DNA of 64,000 bases, from positions 735,142 through 799,141 of the forward strand of contig KL197711.1 of the NCBI GenBank assembly GCA_000697665.1. The letters are read 5' to 3'. The translations under genes were made by a program, and so were the position numbers. Shown one piece after another: positions 18,664 through 29,163 of the stretch. The notes under the pieces are model-generated. The model was not told the origin of the DNA. It searched no databases and saw only the letters and a program-made list of their open reading frames with translations. Within the stretch, counting starts at the first letter, position 1. Every line of letters begins with the position of its first letter. Source of the DNA: Jaapia argillacea MUCL 33604. Its lineage: Eukaryota; Basidiomycota; Agaricomycetes; Jaapiales; Jaapiaceae.

Positions 18664-19682
18664 TCAAAGTGCAACCCTATCCAAAACCTCGACCCTATGT
18701 CCGATCTCAACGTCACCCCCATTCCCACCTCCCACCATCGCCTCCAACCTCGCTCTGAACCTTTCCCTCAGCCTCTCTTTCAAACGATCCGAACTCAACC
18801 TCTCAGGATAATCCATCCCAACAGACGCAGGACACGAGAACTTCATCATCACATGCCTAACACCCGACGAGAGTGATAGAGTAACTTCGTAAACGTCCAA
18901 AGGAACGCCGCTGAGAAAAGGGGTCGGATGTGGGGTGTGCATTGGGACGTAGGCAATTGGGTATTCGAGGACGATTGCTGCAAGTGGGATCGTTAGCGTG
19001 AAATCCAAAGGCGACAAGTCTTGTCCACGTTGGGAGAGGGAGTGGGAAGTCATGATATCGGGTAGTTGGAGCACCCCCTTCATGGTAGAAGCGAGGTGGG
19101 GTAGGGGCGATGACACCTAAGCGAGGTTAAGATCGAAATCTATCAGATAATTTCGTGGGCAGCAAACACGAGACCTACAAGAGTCGGAGGGTCGGTCAAA
19201 GCCACAAATTCCACCCGCTGGTCATCCATGTCCAGGGACAAGGGATCATTACAGAGTGTTTGAAATCTCTCACGCAAAAGAGATATATTGACGAAGAATG
19301 ACTGATCGGATTGAGGGTCATATAGGTGCCTCAAGTCCTTGAACGAATCTGATGCCTGTTCGACAATGTTGGAGATGAGCGGATGGGAGATAGATGACTT
19401 ACCTTAAATAGAGCCTGGACGAGGGAGGGGAATACTTCGAGAGGGTTCGAAACGCAGAAGGCGTCGACCAGATACCCTGTCCTGTGAAACGTCAGGAAAA
19501 CGGCACCGTGAAGTTGTGAGTCAGCGAATTGTTTACCGGATAGCAAGTGCAACGATAGATACGTCTAAGCAGAATGGATCTAGCCGGTGTTTCGACACTT
19601 TCCGTAGTGCGGGGATCCCCCTGACTATATCGTACACTGTCCTCGATAATGCATCGAACTTAGAGGAGGAGAAGTGTGACAT
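18664..19682 (-). CDS. uncharacterised protein, possibly C1orf74/UPF0739-like (DUF4504)
   Basis: Five exons join in phase from ATG at 19682 (MSHFSSSKFDALSRTVYDIV). The first intron is 55 bases and leads from LDVSIVALAIR into TGYLVDAFCVSNPLEVFPSL. Later parts read DQSFFVNISLLRERFQTLCN, VEFVALTDPPTLVGLVFAAH, IVLEYPIAYVPMHTPHPTP, VYEVTLSLSSGVRHVMMKFS. The protein ends with a basic helix (RLKERLRERFRARLEAM). The order of YLVDAF, FFVN, a proline-rich turn and EYPIAY resembles what I recall of the C1orf74 family, but I could not align it. No membrane segment or catalytic motif is obvious. Length is about 260 residues. The function is unknown. The gene is divergent from the glutathione transferase, with only 130 bases between the starts. 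Confidence 0.6.
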
Positions 19683-19812
19683 GCTGAATGTGACAGGTTG
19701 TCACTTGATAACGTTGCTCGATCATTTTGAAATGTGACGCCCAATTTCAACTTCTTAGGTCACCGTTCGCCGACTTCAAGTCTTCAACTCGAACAATCCT
19801 ATTTCCAACACC

Positions 19813-20587
19813 ATGTCGGATGATGCCCAAATCACCCTGTATTGGTTGGAAGACTCTAAAGCCCAACGTATTCTCTGGCTGCTCGAAGAACTTAGCGTCA
19901 AGTATGACATCAAAATGTACAAGCGCGTCGAGGGGCTCGCTCCTCCCGAGCTCAAAGAGGTACGTTGCTGCCCTTACCCTCGTACGGGGCGCAAGTTGAC
20001 CTAAATCTTTGCAGATAAATGGCCTTGGGAAAATTCCCATAGTCACAATCACCCGCGCCGGCGAGCCCACGTTGACCCTCTTCGAATCAGCCTTAATAAC
20101 AGAGTACCTCATCGACCTCTACGGTCCCCAACTGAAACCCCCTCCCTCCGACACCGTCGGAACCCTCAAGTATAAGCTCCACTTGTACTACTCTGAAGGC
20201 GGTTTCCTTCAACCCATGATAATTCACTTCATCTTCCGCAAGATGCACGAAGCAAGTCCCTTCTTCATAAAACCATTGATTACCGCTATGCTCGGACAAC
20301 TCAGGAAGAGGTGGATTGACAAGGCTTATGATGACCATTTTGGGTGGTTGGAGGGAGAGTTGGCACCGGTAGAGGGTGGAGGAGAGCGGTGGTTAGCGAG
20401 CGAGCAGTTTACGGGCGCTGACGTCATTCATGGGTTCAACTGGGACATGGCGGATGACCTGGGAATATTGGATGGTAAGAAATGGCCGAGGTTGGTGGCA
20501 TACATTGCACGGTGTCGGGATAGGGAAGCGTACAAGAAGGCCGGGGAGATCGCCAACGGTTTCACGTCGAAGCCTGCTAAGAAATGA
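19813..20587 (+). CDS. glutathione S-transferase, GTT1-like
   Basis: Cytosolic glutathione transferase involved in detoxification and redox balance. The thioredoxin-fold N-domain starts QITLYWLEDSKAQRILWLLE, as in GTT1-type enzymes. One intron (about 59 bases) splits APPELKE from INGLGKIPIVTI. The cis-Pro of KIPIV and the glutathione-contacting ESALITEYLIDLYG follow. The all-helical C-domain includes HLYYSEGGFLQPMIIHFIF and FTGADVIHGFNWDMADDLG. It ends TSKPAKK. Length is about 239 residues, normal for the class. It is divergent from the gene at 18664-19682. Confidence 0.92.
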
Positions 20588-20724
20588 GTTTGGTTTGTTA
20601 GTGTGGGAATTTGTTTGTATGTGTGGGACTTTTGACTTGTACTCGGTTTTTGCTCTACACGAGTCACGACGTGGGTCAACTCTTGCTTGTCCTTGATTCT
20701 TGCTAGGCTTTATTGCGCAACGAA

Positions 20725-22017
20725 ATGGCTCAATATTTCCCTCGTCCTCGAGCTCGCCCATCATTCTTCCAATCTGCAGAGTCCAATAGTCACCCCACTA
20801 CGTTCACTTCAACCGCCCACCCCGCACAACGAGAACCCCAACAGGAGGCTGCGGTGCCACAACCGCTTACCCTCTCTCTTACATCTCTCGATCAATCAAT
20901 ATACATATTTCCCAACCCTCCATCTGCCTCCTCACCCGATGCATTGCACTCAAGAAGCTCAAGCTTGACTCCGTCATCATTATTCTCGGCGCCTAGTGAG
21001 TTCACCTTCAGCGGTTTTGACGATGAGGGTGGCGAGGTCCTTGGAAGGGATATGAGCAGGAGTAGGAGTGGAAGTAGAGTCAGTGCAATTAGTAGGAGTA
21101 GGAGTACCGGGAGCAGTGGCATTGAGGTTGAGGTTTGGGATCCTGATTGGACGGGGGAGGAGGATGAAGGGGATATATTGGTTGAAGAGGGCGAGGAAGA
21201 TCTTGAAAGGACGAGTCGATGGCATGTTTACCATCCATTCCCATCACAACCTCTGCCTCGCGACGACGATCTAATGAGGACGATGCGACCACGAACCATC
21301 TCTCGACATCCGCTCGATCCAACTCGAATACCGAATCCAATATCGAACTCAAACTACGCTTACACACTCTCCCTCTCCCGCCGTCACCATAACCAACAAA
21401 TGCGTAGTCGCACACAATCGCAGTCCCTCTCGCCACTTCGTCTTCGAACCCAATCTCAGGTCTCCTACGCCTCTCTCTCAAGTTCTCGTTCACAACCTCC
21501 ACCGCCACCGCACCCGTCACTCCACCTCAAACTTCCCCTCCTCTCTTTCATCACCTCACTCCTATCAATAGACGAATCCACCATCCACCTCATCACAACC
21601 ACCCCAGCGACTGCCACAACTTGCGGGAAAGGTGAAAAGAGGGACAGTGTGCTATTCGACGGAGCAGAGTTGCATTCGGGTTCGTTGTTCTTGGATGATG
21701 AGAGTGACGACGTCTCGACTACCTCATCCGAGGGGGAGAACCCCCCAACCCATGGTCTCTTGAAATTCTTCCACTTTGCGGGAACGTCAGAGACAAAGTC
21801 TCTCCTCACCACCATCCGCCACAATGCAGGAGGGTCATCAGAATCGGATGAGGCGAGTGCTGAGACCGATCGCGAGAGACCGAATTTGCTGGTGGTGCCC
21901 AATATTGATTTGTTTGGGCTTTGGGGGCTCGTTAGTGGGATGTTCGGCGTGAGTGGGAAGGCTTGGAGGGAGGTCTGGGCTACAAGCGAGAGGACGACCA
22001 CAGTGGTTGATGTTTGA
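20725..22017 (+). CDS. uncharacterised intronless low-complexity protein
   Basis: A single open frame of about 430 codons without introns, which is unusual among its neighbours. It starts MAQYFPRPRARPSFF, with 138 bases after the GST stop codon. The protein is Ser/Pro/Thr rich, with an RS-like stretch (SRSRSGSRVSAISRSRSTGS), an acidic part (DWTGEEDEGDILVEEGEEDL) and a proline run (SQPPPPPHPSLHLKLPLL). The best-folded part seems to be the last 60 residues, with NLLVVPNIDLFGLWGLVSGM. No domain is recognised. It is probably a disordered scaffold or regulatory protein. A TTG 12 bases upstream is in frame but the ATG is the natural start. Confidence 0.6.
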   Translation: MAQYFPRPRARPSFFQSAESNSHPTTFTSTAHPAQREPQQEAAVPQPLTLSLTSLDQSIYIFPNPPSASSPDALHSRSSSLTPSSLFSAPSEFTFSGFDDEGGEVLGRDMSRSRSGSRVSAISRSRSTGSSGIEVEVWDPDWTGEEDEGDILVEEGEEDLERTSRWHVYHPFPSQPLPRDDDLMRTMRPRTISRHPLDPTRIPNPISNSNYAYTLSLSRRHHNQQMRSRTQSQSLSPLRLRTQSQVSYASLSSSRSQPPPPPHPSLHLKLPLLSFITSLLSIDESTIHLITTTPATATTCGKGEKRDSVLFDGAELHSGSLFLDDESDDVSTTSSEGENPPTHGLLKFFHFAGTSETKSLLTTIRHNAGGSSESDEASAETDRERPNLLVVPNIDLFGLWGLVSGMFGVSGKAWREVWATSERTTTVVDV

Positions 22018-22406
22018 TCGGGGTGACCGTTACGACGGCACTATTTTCCTATGAAGAGGTCGCGGGTGATGGTTTGGCAAGGGACACTAGGATGTAAGGG
22101 AATGATGTAACACTAATCTTGGATATTGTAGGTCTCAGGCAACTTTCATGTTTGTATTGTAAGTGTCCACGATTTCTTGGCTTGATAATGACGATGTAGA
22201 TGTACACGAGACACGATAATTATGCTTAGACTTAGATACCCTCACTAATGACACAAGTTCAATGGATTGCGGGAAACGCTACTCAAATACAGAAGTGATG
22301 AGAGGCCAACATGATTTCAACGTACCGACTGACGGTGAAGAAATTTTGACCTACCGACTACTTACCGTCCCTTTCCGCAGCCGTTCCGAGCCAGCTTAAT
22401 ACCACC
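22018..22406. other. intergenic between convergent orphan gene and rvt gene
   Basis: 3' flanks of two genes ending towards each other. Nothing recognised. Confidence 0.5.
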
Positions 22407-25268
22407 TCACTGGTCCCACTTTATCCTAGCACTCCTCACGACTTCCACCATCCCTACAGGCACCAAATCTTCATTCGGGACGATCTTCATCCCACCTACC
22501 CCAAACTCACCAAATACTCCCTTCATCTCCTCCTGGAAGATCTCACCGACGTACCCATCATACCAATTCGTCCATCCAGCTATGGCAACAGGTGGAGGAG
22601 CCTTGAGCAGAGCAAGATACTTATCTGACCATGCTGTTAACCTAGTTTCACGCCGAGAGACATACTCGTCGAACGATGGAAAGTAGGGGGGATTGAATTG
22701 TGATAATACTCGAGAGTAAGTGGTGTCCATGCGGTCTCGCAGATCACGATAGGTCTCCACATCTCCCTGGGTCAATTGTTTGCGGAAACGTTCTTCGGGG
22801 TCGATCGGGATACTGTTCATTACACCGACGAGATGGGCAATAGGGTTGCTCAAACCTAAGCCACCTTTCTCGAGAGGGAGATAGAACCATCCTTGAGGGA
22901 AGGTATTGACCTTCGCGGCAAAAGGACGGTCACGGATCATCTTCTTTAGCAAACCTACCACGCTTCCAGCATCTTGTGCGCCGGCCGGATAAAACAATCC
23001 TACGGTCTCCCTCTCCACTCGACCCAGAGTCTCAACGATCTCACCAACGAGGTTCCTTCCAACACACTCCCCAACCAGCCCAAGTCCTCCGCCGAAATTC
23101 CTCTCGAAGAACCCCATATATCGGTTCCAAACCCCTTGCCATCCCAACAGGCTTTTCATGTTGCTGAGTTGGCGATGAAACTCGACAATGTGAGGGTTGA
23201 CAATCCCTTGGTCAAGGATAAAATGACCACCGGAGGCGGTGTCGAATTTGAGGAAACCCCAGCGGACTGGGCCTACTGGAAGCACGTCACTCTGGGTGGT
23301 TGGGGCTTCTTCCGAGTGCTCGCCAGTGTTCCACTTGACGAAAGCGGATCCCGTCTTGCTAAAGTTTATGTGAATGCCCACCAATTCCGCGTACCTCAAA
23401 ATCTCTTTCCAACCATCCTCGCACTTGCTGAGATCATGGTCCCAGAACCAGACATCGTCGTGCATCCGATACAGGAATAGACCAGACGCCTTTTGGTTCA
23501 CTGCGAAATCCATCGCGAAGAGTATGACCTCGCCACACAAGGCTGAAAGGGCGTATGAGATCGGTACTCCACGTCTCCGGATTCGGGTACCAGATTCACC
23601 TGCAAAACGAAGTGGAGCAGATAGGAACGCCTGGAAAAAGTCGAGCCATTGTTGGGGGACACCAAAGAATGCGAGGAGAATGAGAATCGAAGAGTGGGGT
23701 AAGGACGGACCGAACCATTCGAAATCAGTGCAAACGATGGTATGCTGTCCGTGGAGCGTCTTGTCCAGATACGTGTCCGTCATCATGAGGTGCAACAGTT
23801 TCTGCTTCACGGCCGTCACGGAGAAATGAGAGGTGTTTGACGTGTCGTTATCTATCTCCATCATTTCTTGGTCGAACATACCTTCATCAGCGCCGTGATA
23901 TCGGACAACCTGCTCCACTCGGCTGGGCAACTGGCTGGCTAGGAAATTGTCCACCCGGATCGATGTTTTCAGGCTCTCTAGACCGTACACGCCAACATCT
24001 TCCTCACAAAAATACGTTCGACGCCTCTCAGTCTCTGCCTTGGTCAAAGGAGAGAACGGAGATTTCCAAAGTGGGCTTTTGAATAGCATCTGGAAAGTCC
24101 TTTTGAACTGGACCTGCCACTTCACCCCGATATACTGCAAAAACAAGCCATCGAGGAGGCTCGGGTCCATGTATGCTCGATACTTCCCGCTGAGATGACG
24201 GCGCATATCTACAGTGATACCCTCTGGAGGCCACGACCACGAAGCGATGTTGGCGAGACGAAGGGTAAGAACGCTTGCGAGGTCTTCGACGGAGGTTGGG
24301 TTAGAGTAGAGTTCGCGAAGGGTGCTGCGTTTGGATTCGTCCATGAGGTCTGATGCAAGGAGAGACTGAATGGTCCAGCGAACATCATACACGGTAACGC
24401 GACCTGCGAGCAGCTGCTCTGCGTGACCTCGGATCTTGAGACGTGCGACGGATATGGCGGATTGCCCCTCTTCAGACGCAAAGAGTTCCTCAAGATATGC
24501 GATCAATGCGGAGGTATCGATGGGTTTATCGTCGAATATGATGGACTCGAGCTTCTCTTTTTGCTCATAGGATTCCTTCCTCTCCAGTTTCACAAACTCG
24601 ACATCTGCCTCGCGTTCCCGAGGTGTGTTGACACTCGGAAAGGCTGTCAAAGCATCTCCACTTTCCGCCCATTCCTTCAACAAGTTACCGAACAACTTGG
24701 TAAACTCAAATCTCGTCTGGAGATGGCGGACCTGAGCTTCAAGGGTCTGGATCCAGCCTCTGAGGATATCCTTACTGAAGCTAGGATCCATCTTCGCCTG
24801 CATCAACCAGACATCCATGTTTGCCAAGTCGAGCTTGCCGTCGATCTGGGTGCCTCCGCTCAGAGATGACGAAGAGGGAAACGTGCCCGAGCCGGACCAA
24901 GAGCGAACGGCCTGAAGGAGGGTTTCGATTTTACCCACAAGATCGTCCTCATCCATGGCATGGACGATATCGAGGACTTTTGCGTGCTCTTCATAAACAA
25001 GACACTGTTTTTCTATTTCCTGCACCTTGATGGAGGTGATGAATTGGAGAGTCTGAGTGTATGCAACGGAGGGGCGGGAATCGGTGACTGACCTGCCATG
25101 AATCGGTGTTCAGTGAATGATCTGAGGAAAACATAATGACGAAAGAGACCTTGCTTCTACACCACGAACAGAACGACGCGATACTTGTCCAAAAAGTCTG
25201 CTTTGACTCGGAAGGCCACGACCGCGCCCACCACGGCCTCGAAGAGGGTATGGTACACCACGTTGCAT
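22407..25268 (-). CDS. reverse-transcriptase-related cellular gene (rvt type)
   Basis: Predicted single-copy, non-mobile reverse-transcriptase-like polymerase of the rvt group described in fungi, rotifers and plants. The CDS is 2,805 bases (934 residues) after removing one 57-base intron (25093-25149), and it stays in frame. The N-terminus is Arg/Gly-rich (RGRGGRGRG), followed by helices with coiled-coil character. Polymerase motifs are visible: motif A TDFEWFGPSLPHSS with D496, motif B RRGVPISYALSALCGEV, motif C RMHDDVWFW with D585 and D586, and a motif D-like ELVGIHINFSKTGSA. The Asp triad is therefore intact, with MHDD in place of YxDD. The long C-terminal part after motif D ends SARIKWDQ. 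There is no endonuclease, integrase, RNase H, terminal repeat or poly-A tail next to it, so it is a cellular gene and not a retroelement. It is divergent from EMC2, with 173 bases between start codons. Confidence 0.88.
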
Positions 25269-25441
25269 GCTTGGAGTAGAGGAGAAAATGGACAATGATA
25301 GACGAGAACAAGGAGGTTCGGGTTCTTATATGCTGAGCCCTGGCAGTCAGTCAAAGCGAGTCAGAGAACTCACACCGACTCCATGTCCGGTTGCGGAACC
25401 GCGACAGCTCTGTGATCAGACACCACGTGGCTTGCTCTGAG
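25269..25441. promoter_or_regulatory. shared divergent promoter of rvt and EMC2
   Basis: Only 173 bases separate the two start codons, so leaders and promoter elements of both genes must lie here or overlap the coding ends. No TATA box or named operator was seen. Confidence 0.5.
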
Positions 25442-26606
25442 ATGGACCTGCCTTCCGCTCTCCAAAGATTATCCGCATATCGTGCTCGTAGCACTCGAGC
25501 GTCCCAGGATATATTCGACAAGGGCCTAGTGGTATTGAACAGCAAGTCCGCCTCGAAATTGGGAGACGATAGTGAGCTACAAGCCGTTCATTCGTGGTTC
25601 TCGCTGACCGCGTAATATCCAGGCTGGGAGTTTCTTGAACAGCTGGCTCTGGCAGCCATTGATGTCGGAAGGATAGATATCGCAGACGTCAGTTGCATTT
25701 CGCCCGGTGGTCTACTTTTTCGTTCTCGCACTGACGCGTTGGACTCGGCTAGCAATGCCTCCAACAATTAATCGACAAGTTCCCTGGATCACCTCGGGTT
25801 GACTGCCTCGAAGGCATCAGGATAGAGGCGACAGAGTCCCCAGAAATGGCATTGAAGTTCTATGAGGAGTTGCTGGACGCCGACCCCGTGAATGCGGTGA
25901 GCAGACGTTCTGTGATTTATGGCGGCAACAACTAAATGACGTGGCCTCCACCAGGCTTTCTGGAAGAGAAAGATATCCGTACTCCGGCGAATGGGCAAGA
26001 TTGAACGAGCGGTGGAAGCCCTTGTTGAATACCTTGACACCTTCTACACCGATGTAGAGGCCTGGGCTGAACTTGCCGACATTTATTCTTCATGTAACCA
26101 GTACGCGTCAATCCTTCCATGTTTGCCTCACATCTCTTATCCCATTCCCCAGATATACATCTGCCATGCAGTCGCTCAGCCATGTTCTTCTCTTGTCTCC
26201 CCAGAACCCATTCTATGTGCTACTATTCGCAGAAACTGCGTACACGTCAGGAGATGTCCCCCTTGCTCTCAAGATGTTCTTGAATACAATCGACATGGCC
26301 GATACGGATGAAGATTCGCTCCCACCCACTGGAATGCTAATCCGTGCCTGGTATGGAGTGAAACTGGTGGGTTGCATAGCTCCCATACTCTAGCCTCGTC
26401 AAATGACATTCACACTTTGATGGTAGTGCACGCGTCGACTCCTCAAGGACACTCGCCTTTCCTCAAAATCCGCCTCGCATACCCCTGTCCCAGGGAGTCT
26501 GTCTCTAATCGACAGCCTCGCAAAGGAGCGGTTAGATGCAGCGTATCAAGATGCGCAGGACGGGCCCTGTGCCAAACTTGTTCCCAGTTGGCTTGTACAA
26601 GTTTGA
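25442..26606 (+). CDS. EMC2 (TTC35), ER membrane protein complex subunit 2
   Basis: Soluble TPR subunit on the cytosolic side of the ER membrane complex, which inserts tail-anchored and multipass proteins. The protein starts MDLPSALQRLSAYRA and then carries TPR-like helices: WEFLEQLALAAIDVGRIDIA, LIDKFPGSPRVDCLEGIRIE, VEALVEYLDTFYTDVEAWAE, LSHVLLLSPQNPFYVLLFAE. The C-terminal exon gives SLIDSLAKERLDAAYQD and ends KLVPSWLVQV. Six or so short introns, all in phase. Length is about 295 residues, normal for EMC2. It converges with BTN1, whose stop codon is 303 bases away. Confidence 0.93.
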
Positions 26607-26908
26607 TTTACCTGTGATATGCAATGCCACATTTGACCGTTCCATTTTGGTCCGACCTGTCAAGTTCTCTCTTTCTTCGAATTGGCGGTGGATTTCTTTG
26701 AACCCACGCTTTTGAAACTTTTGCGCAGGTGTATCGCAGGTGGGGGTCTCCATTGAATCTCAACCGGGTTTCACGACAGTCGTTCTCGTGTTTCCCTCCA
26801 AGGTGGGGTTCAGAGCCAACATGATCGTCAGCCATGGAGAAGCTCCACTCGGAAGTCAACCATGGTACATCGCGCATCATGCCAGACTGGGAGGCAAGCA
26901 TTGGAATA
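26607..26908. other. intergenic between convergent EMC2 and BTN1
   Basis: About 300 bases of 3' flanks. Nothing recognised. Confidence 0.5.
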
Positions 26909-29163
26909 TCATAAACCTCTACACAAAGTTTTACCCCTCCCAACCTGCGCCTTGCACAACTCAACCTCCGTCGGCACAGCTACGATAGATGCACACAAGA
27001 TTCCAAAAGAATCAGCGAACCCGATCGACCCAATACGAAACTCTCGCTCCTGTTTCTCTCTCTCGGGGTCATCAGGTGGCGAGGGTGATGTTTCTTGGTT
27101 CACACGATAGAAAACATTGACACTGGACGTGCAAGGAGATCAGTATGACGACGACGTATCATGTGCGAGGATGTTAGACATACTAAGCCAAGCCTCCACA
27201 TAACCCCTCCAACGAAATCAACAAGAACACCAAGAGTGCACTTAAGCCCTCTGATCCTTCCTCATCGCTGCCACTTCCACCAAAGATTCCCCGAGCTGAC
27301 TCAAATCCCAGAGTGATCAGCACGAAGAATTGAAGCACAGCTGGGAGAGGGAGGAGACGGGCAGGAAGAGGCGGGATGCCGAGCGAGATGGAGGAGCGAG
27401 AGACGAAGACAGTCGTTTGGTAGACTAGCTGCAAGTATGGGATCCCAGCATCAGTACAATCGTAGGTCGAGGAAGATGGCAGGGGGCGAACGGACCTGCC
27501 ACAATGGATAGTAGTCGCGAACTGAGTGGATGATCTTGCTCATTAGCGGATGCCTATCCGCGGAGGGTACAGGATACAATAGAGTGGGAGCGATGCCCTT
27601 TTTTCTCGAGGTGAACAATACAAATGGCATCAGGGTCGCACTCGACACTTACCTGATTAATAGTATACTCAAACTATGAATTCCACCATCAGCAAAGTGC
27701 ACAGTTTGCCATAGATGTGATAGGCCTATGGGCGCGAACTCACTAGATAAACGCAAACTATCCGTGGGCCGTCAGCTACGTGAATACACACTCACTCCTG
27801 AACGGGAAAATGCTCACACAGTGGTAGCATATACTTTGCCAGTAGGGGCTTTACAAGTCGCCACTTATCTTCTGCAGAAAGTGAGATGTGTGCCTTCCCT
27901 TGCACCTCGCTGTCCCTTTCTATGGGCTCGTCGGTGTCATCTTCTTCACCGGTAGCGACTGGGGTATAAGATGCCGTCAGTGGAGCGCCGATATCTTCGT
28001 CGTCGTATGACTCCGGCAAGGATAATGAGGCAAAAGCGGGAGGATGTGGGAGGAGGAAAAAATATGTGAGAGGGATGACGAATGGCATCACCTATGTCGG
28101 TCAATTCGGAAGGATGCGCGATGAGGGTTAGTTGCAGTTGGAAGGTGGAGTACGTACCGAGGAGAGACCAACTCCAGTCCGAACACCTAGGCCTCGAACT
28201 TCCCACCAAATAAACGCGCCAACAAGACCTGCAGCTCCTGTTCCAGAAGCAAAATAGCTATGAAGATAGAGTTCAGAGGGATCATATGAACAACCTGGAT
28301 CGAATGGCGTACCCAACCCCGTGTCCAGCAACGGAAGGTGGATGATACGTTGTTGACAGTTGCAGGAATGTCAACTCGCCGAGGCCTGCGAAAGGGCGGG
28401 GGGGAGAAGCGTGAATGAAACATCAGATTAGACATATTGGAGAACGAACCAGAGGAGAATGAAGCGAGACTGATGCCCAACAATCTCATAAATAGGCTAT
28501 CAAATGCCGCGACGACCTGAGATTCAAGATATGTGAATCGTGGAGACCGCGGCTACAACCTATGGCTGTTGCAGAGACAGAGAGGGATTCACTCACAACC
28601 ATACCGAAGGCACTGAGCAAGCAACATCCCACCAAGCGTTTCTGATATCTTATGCGACCCTTCAAGACATATGGCCAGCCCACTTTCGCCACTAGCGCAG
28701 GAGCGATGTTGCAAAAGGCTATGATTCCTTTTGGAGTGGATGGTGGGACGAGGTCAAGAGCTGCTGAAAGGATGATGACATAGAGGACTAATGAAATGTC
28801 ATCCTGAGGGTCAATTACCACATATTTAAGATATCGAATATATTCACCATTGTTTATCAGGCCAAAGAGAAAGAATGAGAGTCCCAGTCTGAGAAGGAGC
28901 CTCTTGCGATCGTCTGAGCAAAGTGATCAGTCGGCTATCATGAGACATTAGGTGTGAGGATATGAACCTTTCACCGCAGAAGCCGAATCATCATCTCTCA
29001 ATGGTAGAGACTCGTGGACCCTCTGATCTTCGTTGTCGTGATCCATGTTGGCAGGTGGTACGAAACGGTTCCCACTGTAGGAGTCTGAACGGAGGTTGGT
29101 GGCTGTCGTTTGCAGTTCGTAACGTTCGGCGTCAGGATGTGATAAGCTGGAATGATCTACCAT
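26909..29163 (-). CDS. BTN1, CLN3/battenin family lysosome/vacuole membrane protein
   Basis: Multi-pass vacuolar membrane protein of the CLN3 family, involved in vacuolar pH and amino acid balance. The soluble N-terminus (MVDHSSLSHPDAERYELQ to DDDSASAVK) is followed by membrane segments: LLLRLGLSFFLFGLINN, ALVAKVGWPYVLKGRIRYQK, RLLGISLASFSSG with a following Thr/Phe-rich part, YFASGTGAAGLVGAFIWWEV, LPFVIPLTYFFLLP, and later YQTTVFVSRSSISLGIPPLP, FLLISLEGLCGGLAYVNVFY. These blocks are characteristic of CLN3. The end is KTLCRGL. About ten short introns. The C-terminal exon (27103-26909) continues well past the last helix into a hydrophilic tail. Start at the ATG at 29163. I estimate 450-500 residues. 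Confidence 0.9.

Follow-up and report, generated by a model that had tools for sequence, protein, structure and literature searches.

The window analysed here is a 64,000-nt stretch of contig KL197711.1 from Jaapia argillacea MUCL 33604, and positions are counted within it unless another contig or locus is named. On the minus strand (25268 to 22407), the window encodes an rvt gene for a protein of 934 aa with one probable intron of 57 nt (Table 1). A 900-codon open frame (25109 to 22407) contains exon 2, and the chance expectation of such a frame at 52% GC is about 3e-18. Exon 2 has no methionine ahead of the conserved TLQFITSIK segment, and therefore an upstream exon is required. The original prediction for this DNA had proposed one gene with a 57-base intron. 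The gene itself is supported by the 900-codon frame and the ATG at 25268, but the exact intron is only probable: its donor (GTCTCT) is weak, and it is one of 10 listed frame-keeping GT-AG pairs of 40–120 nt with the same ATG. The Arg/Gly-rich N-terminus of the original prediction was confirmed, with 10 Arg and 8 Gly in 41 residues and six RG dipeptides against three in the other 893 residues. This N-terminus has no counterpart in the paralogue models or in the bacterial proteins described below.

The gene had also been placed between housekeeping genes. This is half shown, since the right neighbour covers part of EMC2 but Pfam gives no match for the 436-aa ORF on the left. Window positions 19000–29000 contained no repeat of 20 bases or longer, and the gene with its 7-kb surroundings matched only itself in a genome search that skipped very common words. 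As far as tested, these unique flanks agree with the earlier statement that no element features surround the gene.

Table 1 Features of the window rvt gene, its neighbours and its paralogues. Positions refer to the window, except for those on contig C14.
Feature	Position	Strand	Remarks
Left neighbour, 436-aa ORF	20707..22017	+	Without Pfam match; outside the rvt gene
Exon 2	22407..25092	-	Remainder of the rvt protein including the stop codon; single open frame
F892	22536..22538	-	Tyr in 12/12 bacterial rvts and both C14 paralogues
Y884	22560..22562	-	C-terminal Tyr in 12/12 bacterial rvts and both C14 paralogues
Y865	22617..22619	-	Tyr in 12/12 bacterial rvts and both C14 paralogues
Motif D region, N616..K619	23355..23366	-	Invariant in 15/15 sequences
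Motif C, R582-M-H-D585-D586	23454..23468	-	
Motif B core, G548-V-P550	23562..23570	-	
Motif A	23712..23726	-	D496 (23726-23724); aromatic F500 at D+4 (23714-23712)
K343-x-R345, putative fingers motif 2	24177..24185	-	Invariant in 15/15 sequences
Probable intron, 57 nt	25093..25149	-	GTCTCT...TGGCAG; one of 10 frame-keeping choices
Exon 1, Arg/Gly-rich N-terminus	25150..25268	-	Start codon 25268-25266; splice site is a best guess
Right neighbour, ORF covering part of EMC2 (ER membrane complex subunit 2)	25940..26311	+	Divergently transcribed; TPR_EMC2 E 5.5e-9
rvt paralogues (L007, L008)	C14:334168-336578 and 344644-347039		Opposite orientation; inverted pair about 8 kb apart

Two profile comparisons had been proposed as a check of the reverse transcriptase (RT) assignment, and they gave different answers. 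The Pfam RVT_1 profile matched the window protein below threshold (E 9.2e-5; 22.7 bits against a cut-off of 29.6), and the rvt-family profile RT_UG37 of PADLOC (PDLC03776) matched residues 92–757 of the 900-aa ORF with an E-value of 8.8e-47. In Herpetosiphon aurantiacus, RT_UG37 matched a 786-aa ORF over its full length with 1234 bits, which was the only match at E 0.001. We take this gene (L024:1477-3837) to be the published, biochemically studied bacterial rvt; Yushenova and Arkhipova reportedly purified the rvt of this species in 2018. Because of the 1234-bit match and the reported source of the studied rvt, we consider RT_UG37 to be the bacterial rvt. By sequence, the defence-library profile and the rvt naming seem to describe one family. 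A limited literature look-up found no text equating the two, and we make no claim of priority.

The rvt identity was further borne out by direct comparison. The window protein is collinear with the Herpetosiphon protein, N- and C-terminal domains included, and they share motifs A, B and C, the KxR element and two C-terminal tyrosines. The stretch from KxR to motif A is 150 residues in the Herpetosiphon protein and 151 in the window protein. They differ in that identity is only about 21%, the RG-rich N-terminus is present in the window protein alone of the two, the motif C context is RMHDDVWFW in the window protein and RFVDDLTII in the Herpetosiphon protein, and the column of Herpetosiphon Y749 holds Phe in the window protein. 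In blastp, the window protein matched all of 10 full-length bacterial rvts with 20–22% identity (E 4e-38 to 1e-22); L037 and L039, also full-length, joined the alignments only and are outside this set of 10. No match to the window protein was found in NCBIfam, and none below E 0.19 in PHROGs. The RT_UG37 profile matched at 1e-20 in 15 of 400 sampled Chloroflexota genomes. Fourteen of these had one match and the other had two partial matches on one contig. As at most two candidates were scored per genome, this is only a crude indication that copy numbers are low. Judging from its sequence, the window gene is a new member of the known but poorly understood rvt class.

Outside these genomes, relatives were sought in several collections. 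No viral or phage relative was found in three viral contig scans or by phage tblastn at E 1. Plasmids yielded no relative at E 0.01, and the eight records obtained at E 10 were chance matches to sulfite reductases. A near-mode search of E. coli genomes found no relative. A scan of genome contigs with the three-sequence alignment returned 88 stretches, none of them a relative; the patterns were perhaps too fungal. The Fusarium virguliforme proteins named RVT were set aside as a comparison, as they are described among transposons (PMC4920403).

Motifs A (TDFEWF, D496), B (RRGVPISYALS) and C (RMHDD, D585-D586) and the D-like GIHINFSKTGS, all of which had been read from the translation, are present with this residue numbering. 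We aligned 15 sequences, namely the window protein, the two C14 paralogues and 12 full-length bacterial rvts, excluding four partial loci. The three catalytic aspartates that were said to be kept (D496, D585 and D586) are invariant in 15/15 sequences. Forty columns were invariant across the alignment, including K343, R345, D496, G548, P550, R582, D585, D586, N616 and K619, as well as W775, G783 and G784 in the C-terminal domain; this count was made with provisional joins of the C14 proteins, and the columns for K, R, D and DD recurred once these joins were corrected. The original prediction regarded the MHDD variant as an argument for selection. However, the family element is R582-x-x-D585-D586, and the residue before DD varies within the family (H or Y in the rvts of the Jaapia genome; V, M or I among the 12 bacterial rvts). 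MHDD is therefore an ordinary variant and no special sign of selection. The spacing from R345 to D496 is 151 residues in the window protein and 140–166 in the other 14 sequences. It is known that rvts carry a big insertion called 2a, as described in PMC5718144. If KxR is motif 2, the 151-residue stretch before D496 would hold this insertion.

The window protein alone matched no solved structure below E 0.22, and a three-sequence profile (A1) matched none below 0.02. A profile of the window protein and the 12 bacterial rvts (A2; 13 members) found the solved bacterial RTs 5hhj and 6ar1 at 2e-10 to 3e-10 with motifs A–D aligned, which brought D (motif A), G-x-P (motif B) and R-x-x-D-D (motif C) into register. 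The former is listed as retron-type, although we presume that it is a group II intron RT; 6ar1 is the GsI-IIC group II intron RT. The likeness to both is confined to motifs A–D, and the window gene lacks a surrounding element. An hhalign comparison of A2 with one Herpetosiphon group II intron RT gave an E-value of 3.4e-5 and a probability of 72%, and RVT_1 matched 13/13 members of A2 (best 6.1e-16). A single-sequence AlphaFold model of the 900-aa ORF had a mean pLDDT of 34.2 and, as regards an N-terminal coiled coil, showed only a helix of very low confidence. The predicted palm fold of the window protein is thus based on the A2 alignment to solved RTs.

Genes of the rvt class had been presented as single-copy, and one rvt gene per genome is indeed the usual description (PMC10680173). 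This does not hold here: a search of the genome (43.7 Mb in 95 contigs) found at least three rvt genes, one in the window and a pair on contig C14, and these counts are lower bounds. Only one of the three is of the window lineage. One gene per genome is a habit of the family, while filing a gene as rvt follows homology. Between the two C14 copies, identity is 90% in DNA over 3.4 kb and 92% in protein, and they share 41% identity with the window protein. Their dS is 0.32 and dN 0.042, giving a dN/dS of 0.131 (bootstrap 0.098–0.174), and their intron divergence is 0.157. The C14 pair is under purifying selection, a result that covers this pair alone. The dN/dS check suggested earlier was carried out for the C14 pair; at 41% identity the C14 copies are too far from the window gene to give a figure for it. 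A multi-copy, stop-ridden distribution, named earlier as evidence against a cellular gene, is not what the genome holds, because the frames of the two extra copies are broken by nothing but introns and the pair is under purifying selection.

The C14 paralogues resemble the window copy in domain order and catalytic residues. They differ from it by having Tyr for Phe, by lacking an RG-rich N-terminus and by having, in our models, ten introns each, two of them near the start and eight within the body; the window gene has a single intron. The body of the window gene (22407-25092) is free of introns where the paralogues have eight. Intron loss through a cDNA intermediate could be one reason for this intron-free body. 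As a possible mark of a retrocopy, direct repeats were looked for near the window gene, and none as long as 20 bases was found. At the other end of the protein, C14B, one of the C14 copies, carries an RG-rich tail; its DNA similarity to the other copy (C14A) breaks off just ahead of this tail, at the point where C14A ends.

The window copy is a diverged, intron-poor rvt paralogue. Otherwise invariant sites are kept at 46 of 60 positions in the window protein and at 48/55 and 46/55 in the two C14 copies. The sites lost from the window protein include W695, where all 14 other aligned sequences have Tyr, and F892. The 2018 paper is said to describe conserved C-terminal tyrosines in rvts and to tie them to protein priming. 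With Phe instead of Tyr at 892, another residue must serve if the window protein primes on itself. In the phylogenetic tree, the window branch (1.31) was longer than that of the C14 copies (0.33 plus 0.01–0.06), and the program issued a long-branch warning. A relative-rate count with the 12 bacterial outgroups gave 61–75 changes only in the window protein against 40–54 only in C14A. The p values ranged from 0.009 to 0.36 and were below 0.05 with 4/12 outgroups, which are not independent of each other. Judged from these sequence comparisons, any acceleration of the window copy would be mild at most.

Taken jointly, these results make it likely that this is a cellular rvt-class gene rather than part of a mobile element, and that it encodes a template-independent polymerase helping the cell under stress. 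The conserved residues suggest that the protein is probably active as such a polymerase. Its mechanism and role may be sketched by analogy. Two-metal nucleotidyl transfer would take place at D496 and D585, as the catalytic residues imply. If the window protein behaves like other rvts, it would work as a multimer, need no external primer-template, start from either a hydroxyl group on a protein or the 3′ end of a nucleic acid and add nucleotides in a non-templated, terminal-transferase-like manner; such an activity might help the cell through protein-synthesis stress. Protein priming by the bacterial rvt was reportedly described in 2018, together with an N-terminal coiled coil and multimerisation. 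According to PMC10680173, rvts are widespread in free-living organisms and polymerise without a template, and their catalytic residues are needed for stress relief. The RVT of Neurospora crassa is reported as non-essential, induced on inhibition of protein synthesis and active as a terminal transferase in vitro (PMC3520738). It is a fungal rvt by the literature, and we liken it to the window protein by description; activity and induction are reported for the Neurospora protein.

Other readings of the gene have to be weighed against this one. The gene has a negligible probability of being a retroelement RT (LINE, LTR, Penelope or group II type), whether complete or as a remnant. One could appeal to the weak RVT_1 match (E 9.2e-5, 22.7 bits, cut-off 29.6) and to a genome rich in such matches: RVT_1 gave at least 150 of them among 178 candidates, and all 150 that were scored exceeded the cut-off. 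But the window gene is absent from these 150, its flanks are unique and hold no repeats of 20 bases or more, and the bacterial rvt match extends across all domains. We rejected a retroelement origin on its sub-threshold RVT_1 score, its absence from the 150 matches, the unique flanks and the lack of repeats. With unique flanks around the window copy, and with three rvt genes found where RVT_1 matches number at least 150, the rvts of this genome have the look of genes, though there is more than one. It is improbable that the gene descends from a bacterial antiviral RT and still works in defence. PADLOC files RT_UG37, the same bacterial family, under DRT, and 12 of the 13 A2 members match other UG/DRT profiles (best RT_UG17, 1.5e-18). 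The label implies phage defence, but nothing here supports that: the window protein at E 0.001 matches, besides RT_UG37, only Drt6 (6.9e-5), and the literature searched yielded no defence function for UG37/rvt. The role reported for rvts is stress tolerance (PMC10680173).

The divergence of the window copy allows two further readings. It might be a decaying duplicate that drifts while the C14 genes carry the function. The long branch and the change of 14/60 otherwise invariant sites would fit such drift. However, 934 codons have stayed open after divergence to 41% identity, the named catalytic residues are kept and 8/14 of the changes read as conservative (L/I, L/V, three E/D, Y/W, W/Y and Y/F), so that we regard decay as very improbable. 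Alternatively, the window copy could have shifted in function: having lost self-priming at the C-terminal Tyr, it would act as a polymerase only on nucleic-acid ends with its RG-rich N-terminus binding RNA, while the C14 pair keeps the ancestral job. Its F892 in place of the Tyr of 14/14 relatives, an RG-rich N-terminus that the remaining aligned sequences lack, a single intron where the C14 models have ten and the longer branch in the tree all point this way. Against this, the conserved Y865 and Y884 remain, the literature found names no priming Tyr in rvts, the rate difference is weak, and the window copy is not alone in its RG content, as C14B has an RG-rich tail. We consider such a shift unlikely, though with an appreciable chance. 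A bolder version is that two rvt systems coexist in the fungus: the C14 pair, ancestral, rich in introns and with all C-terminal tyrosines, and a diverged intron-poor window copy. The latter, with its new RG-rich N-terminus and F892, would have given up self-priming at that residue and would tail RNA or DNA ends; its introns would have been lost through a reverse-transcribed copy of an rvt transcript. We offer this as a speculation that is rather unlikely to hold in full.

In 2017, rvts were described as the sole RT group shared by bacteria and eukaryotes (PMC5718144). The J. argillacea genome has three open rvt genes, one of which naturally carries Phe at an otherwise conserved C-terminal Tyr, and thus offers a ready test of priming by Tyr. 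The same three-gene genome lets one ask whether rvt copies split roles.

The neighbourhoods of the bacterial rvts were also inspected. In six of the 12 bacterial loci (L024, L031, L032, L033, L034 and L035), a 341-aa ORF lies directly upstream of rvt on the same strand. In Herpetosiphon (L024), this ORF is HisG, ATP phosphoribosyltransferase, 28 bp from rvt; the other five were judged by length and place only. In these bacterial loci, rvt would adjoin histidine synthesis. As the six loci are close relatives, the arrangement may reflect one event. A protein that combines a TIR domain with a beta-helix region (L036:4002-5414) is encoded upstream of rvt, on the same strand, in a Chloroflexota genome.
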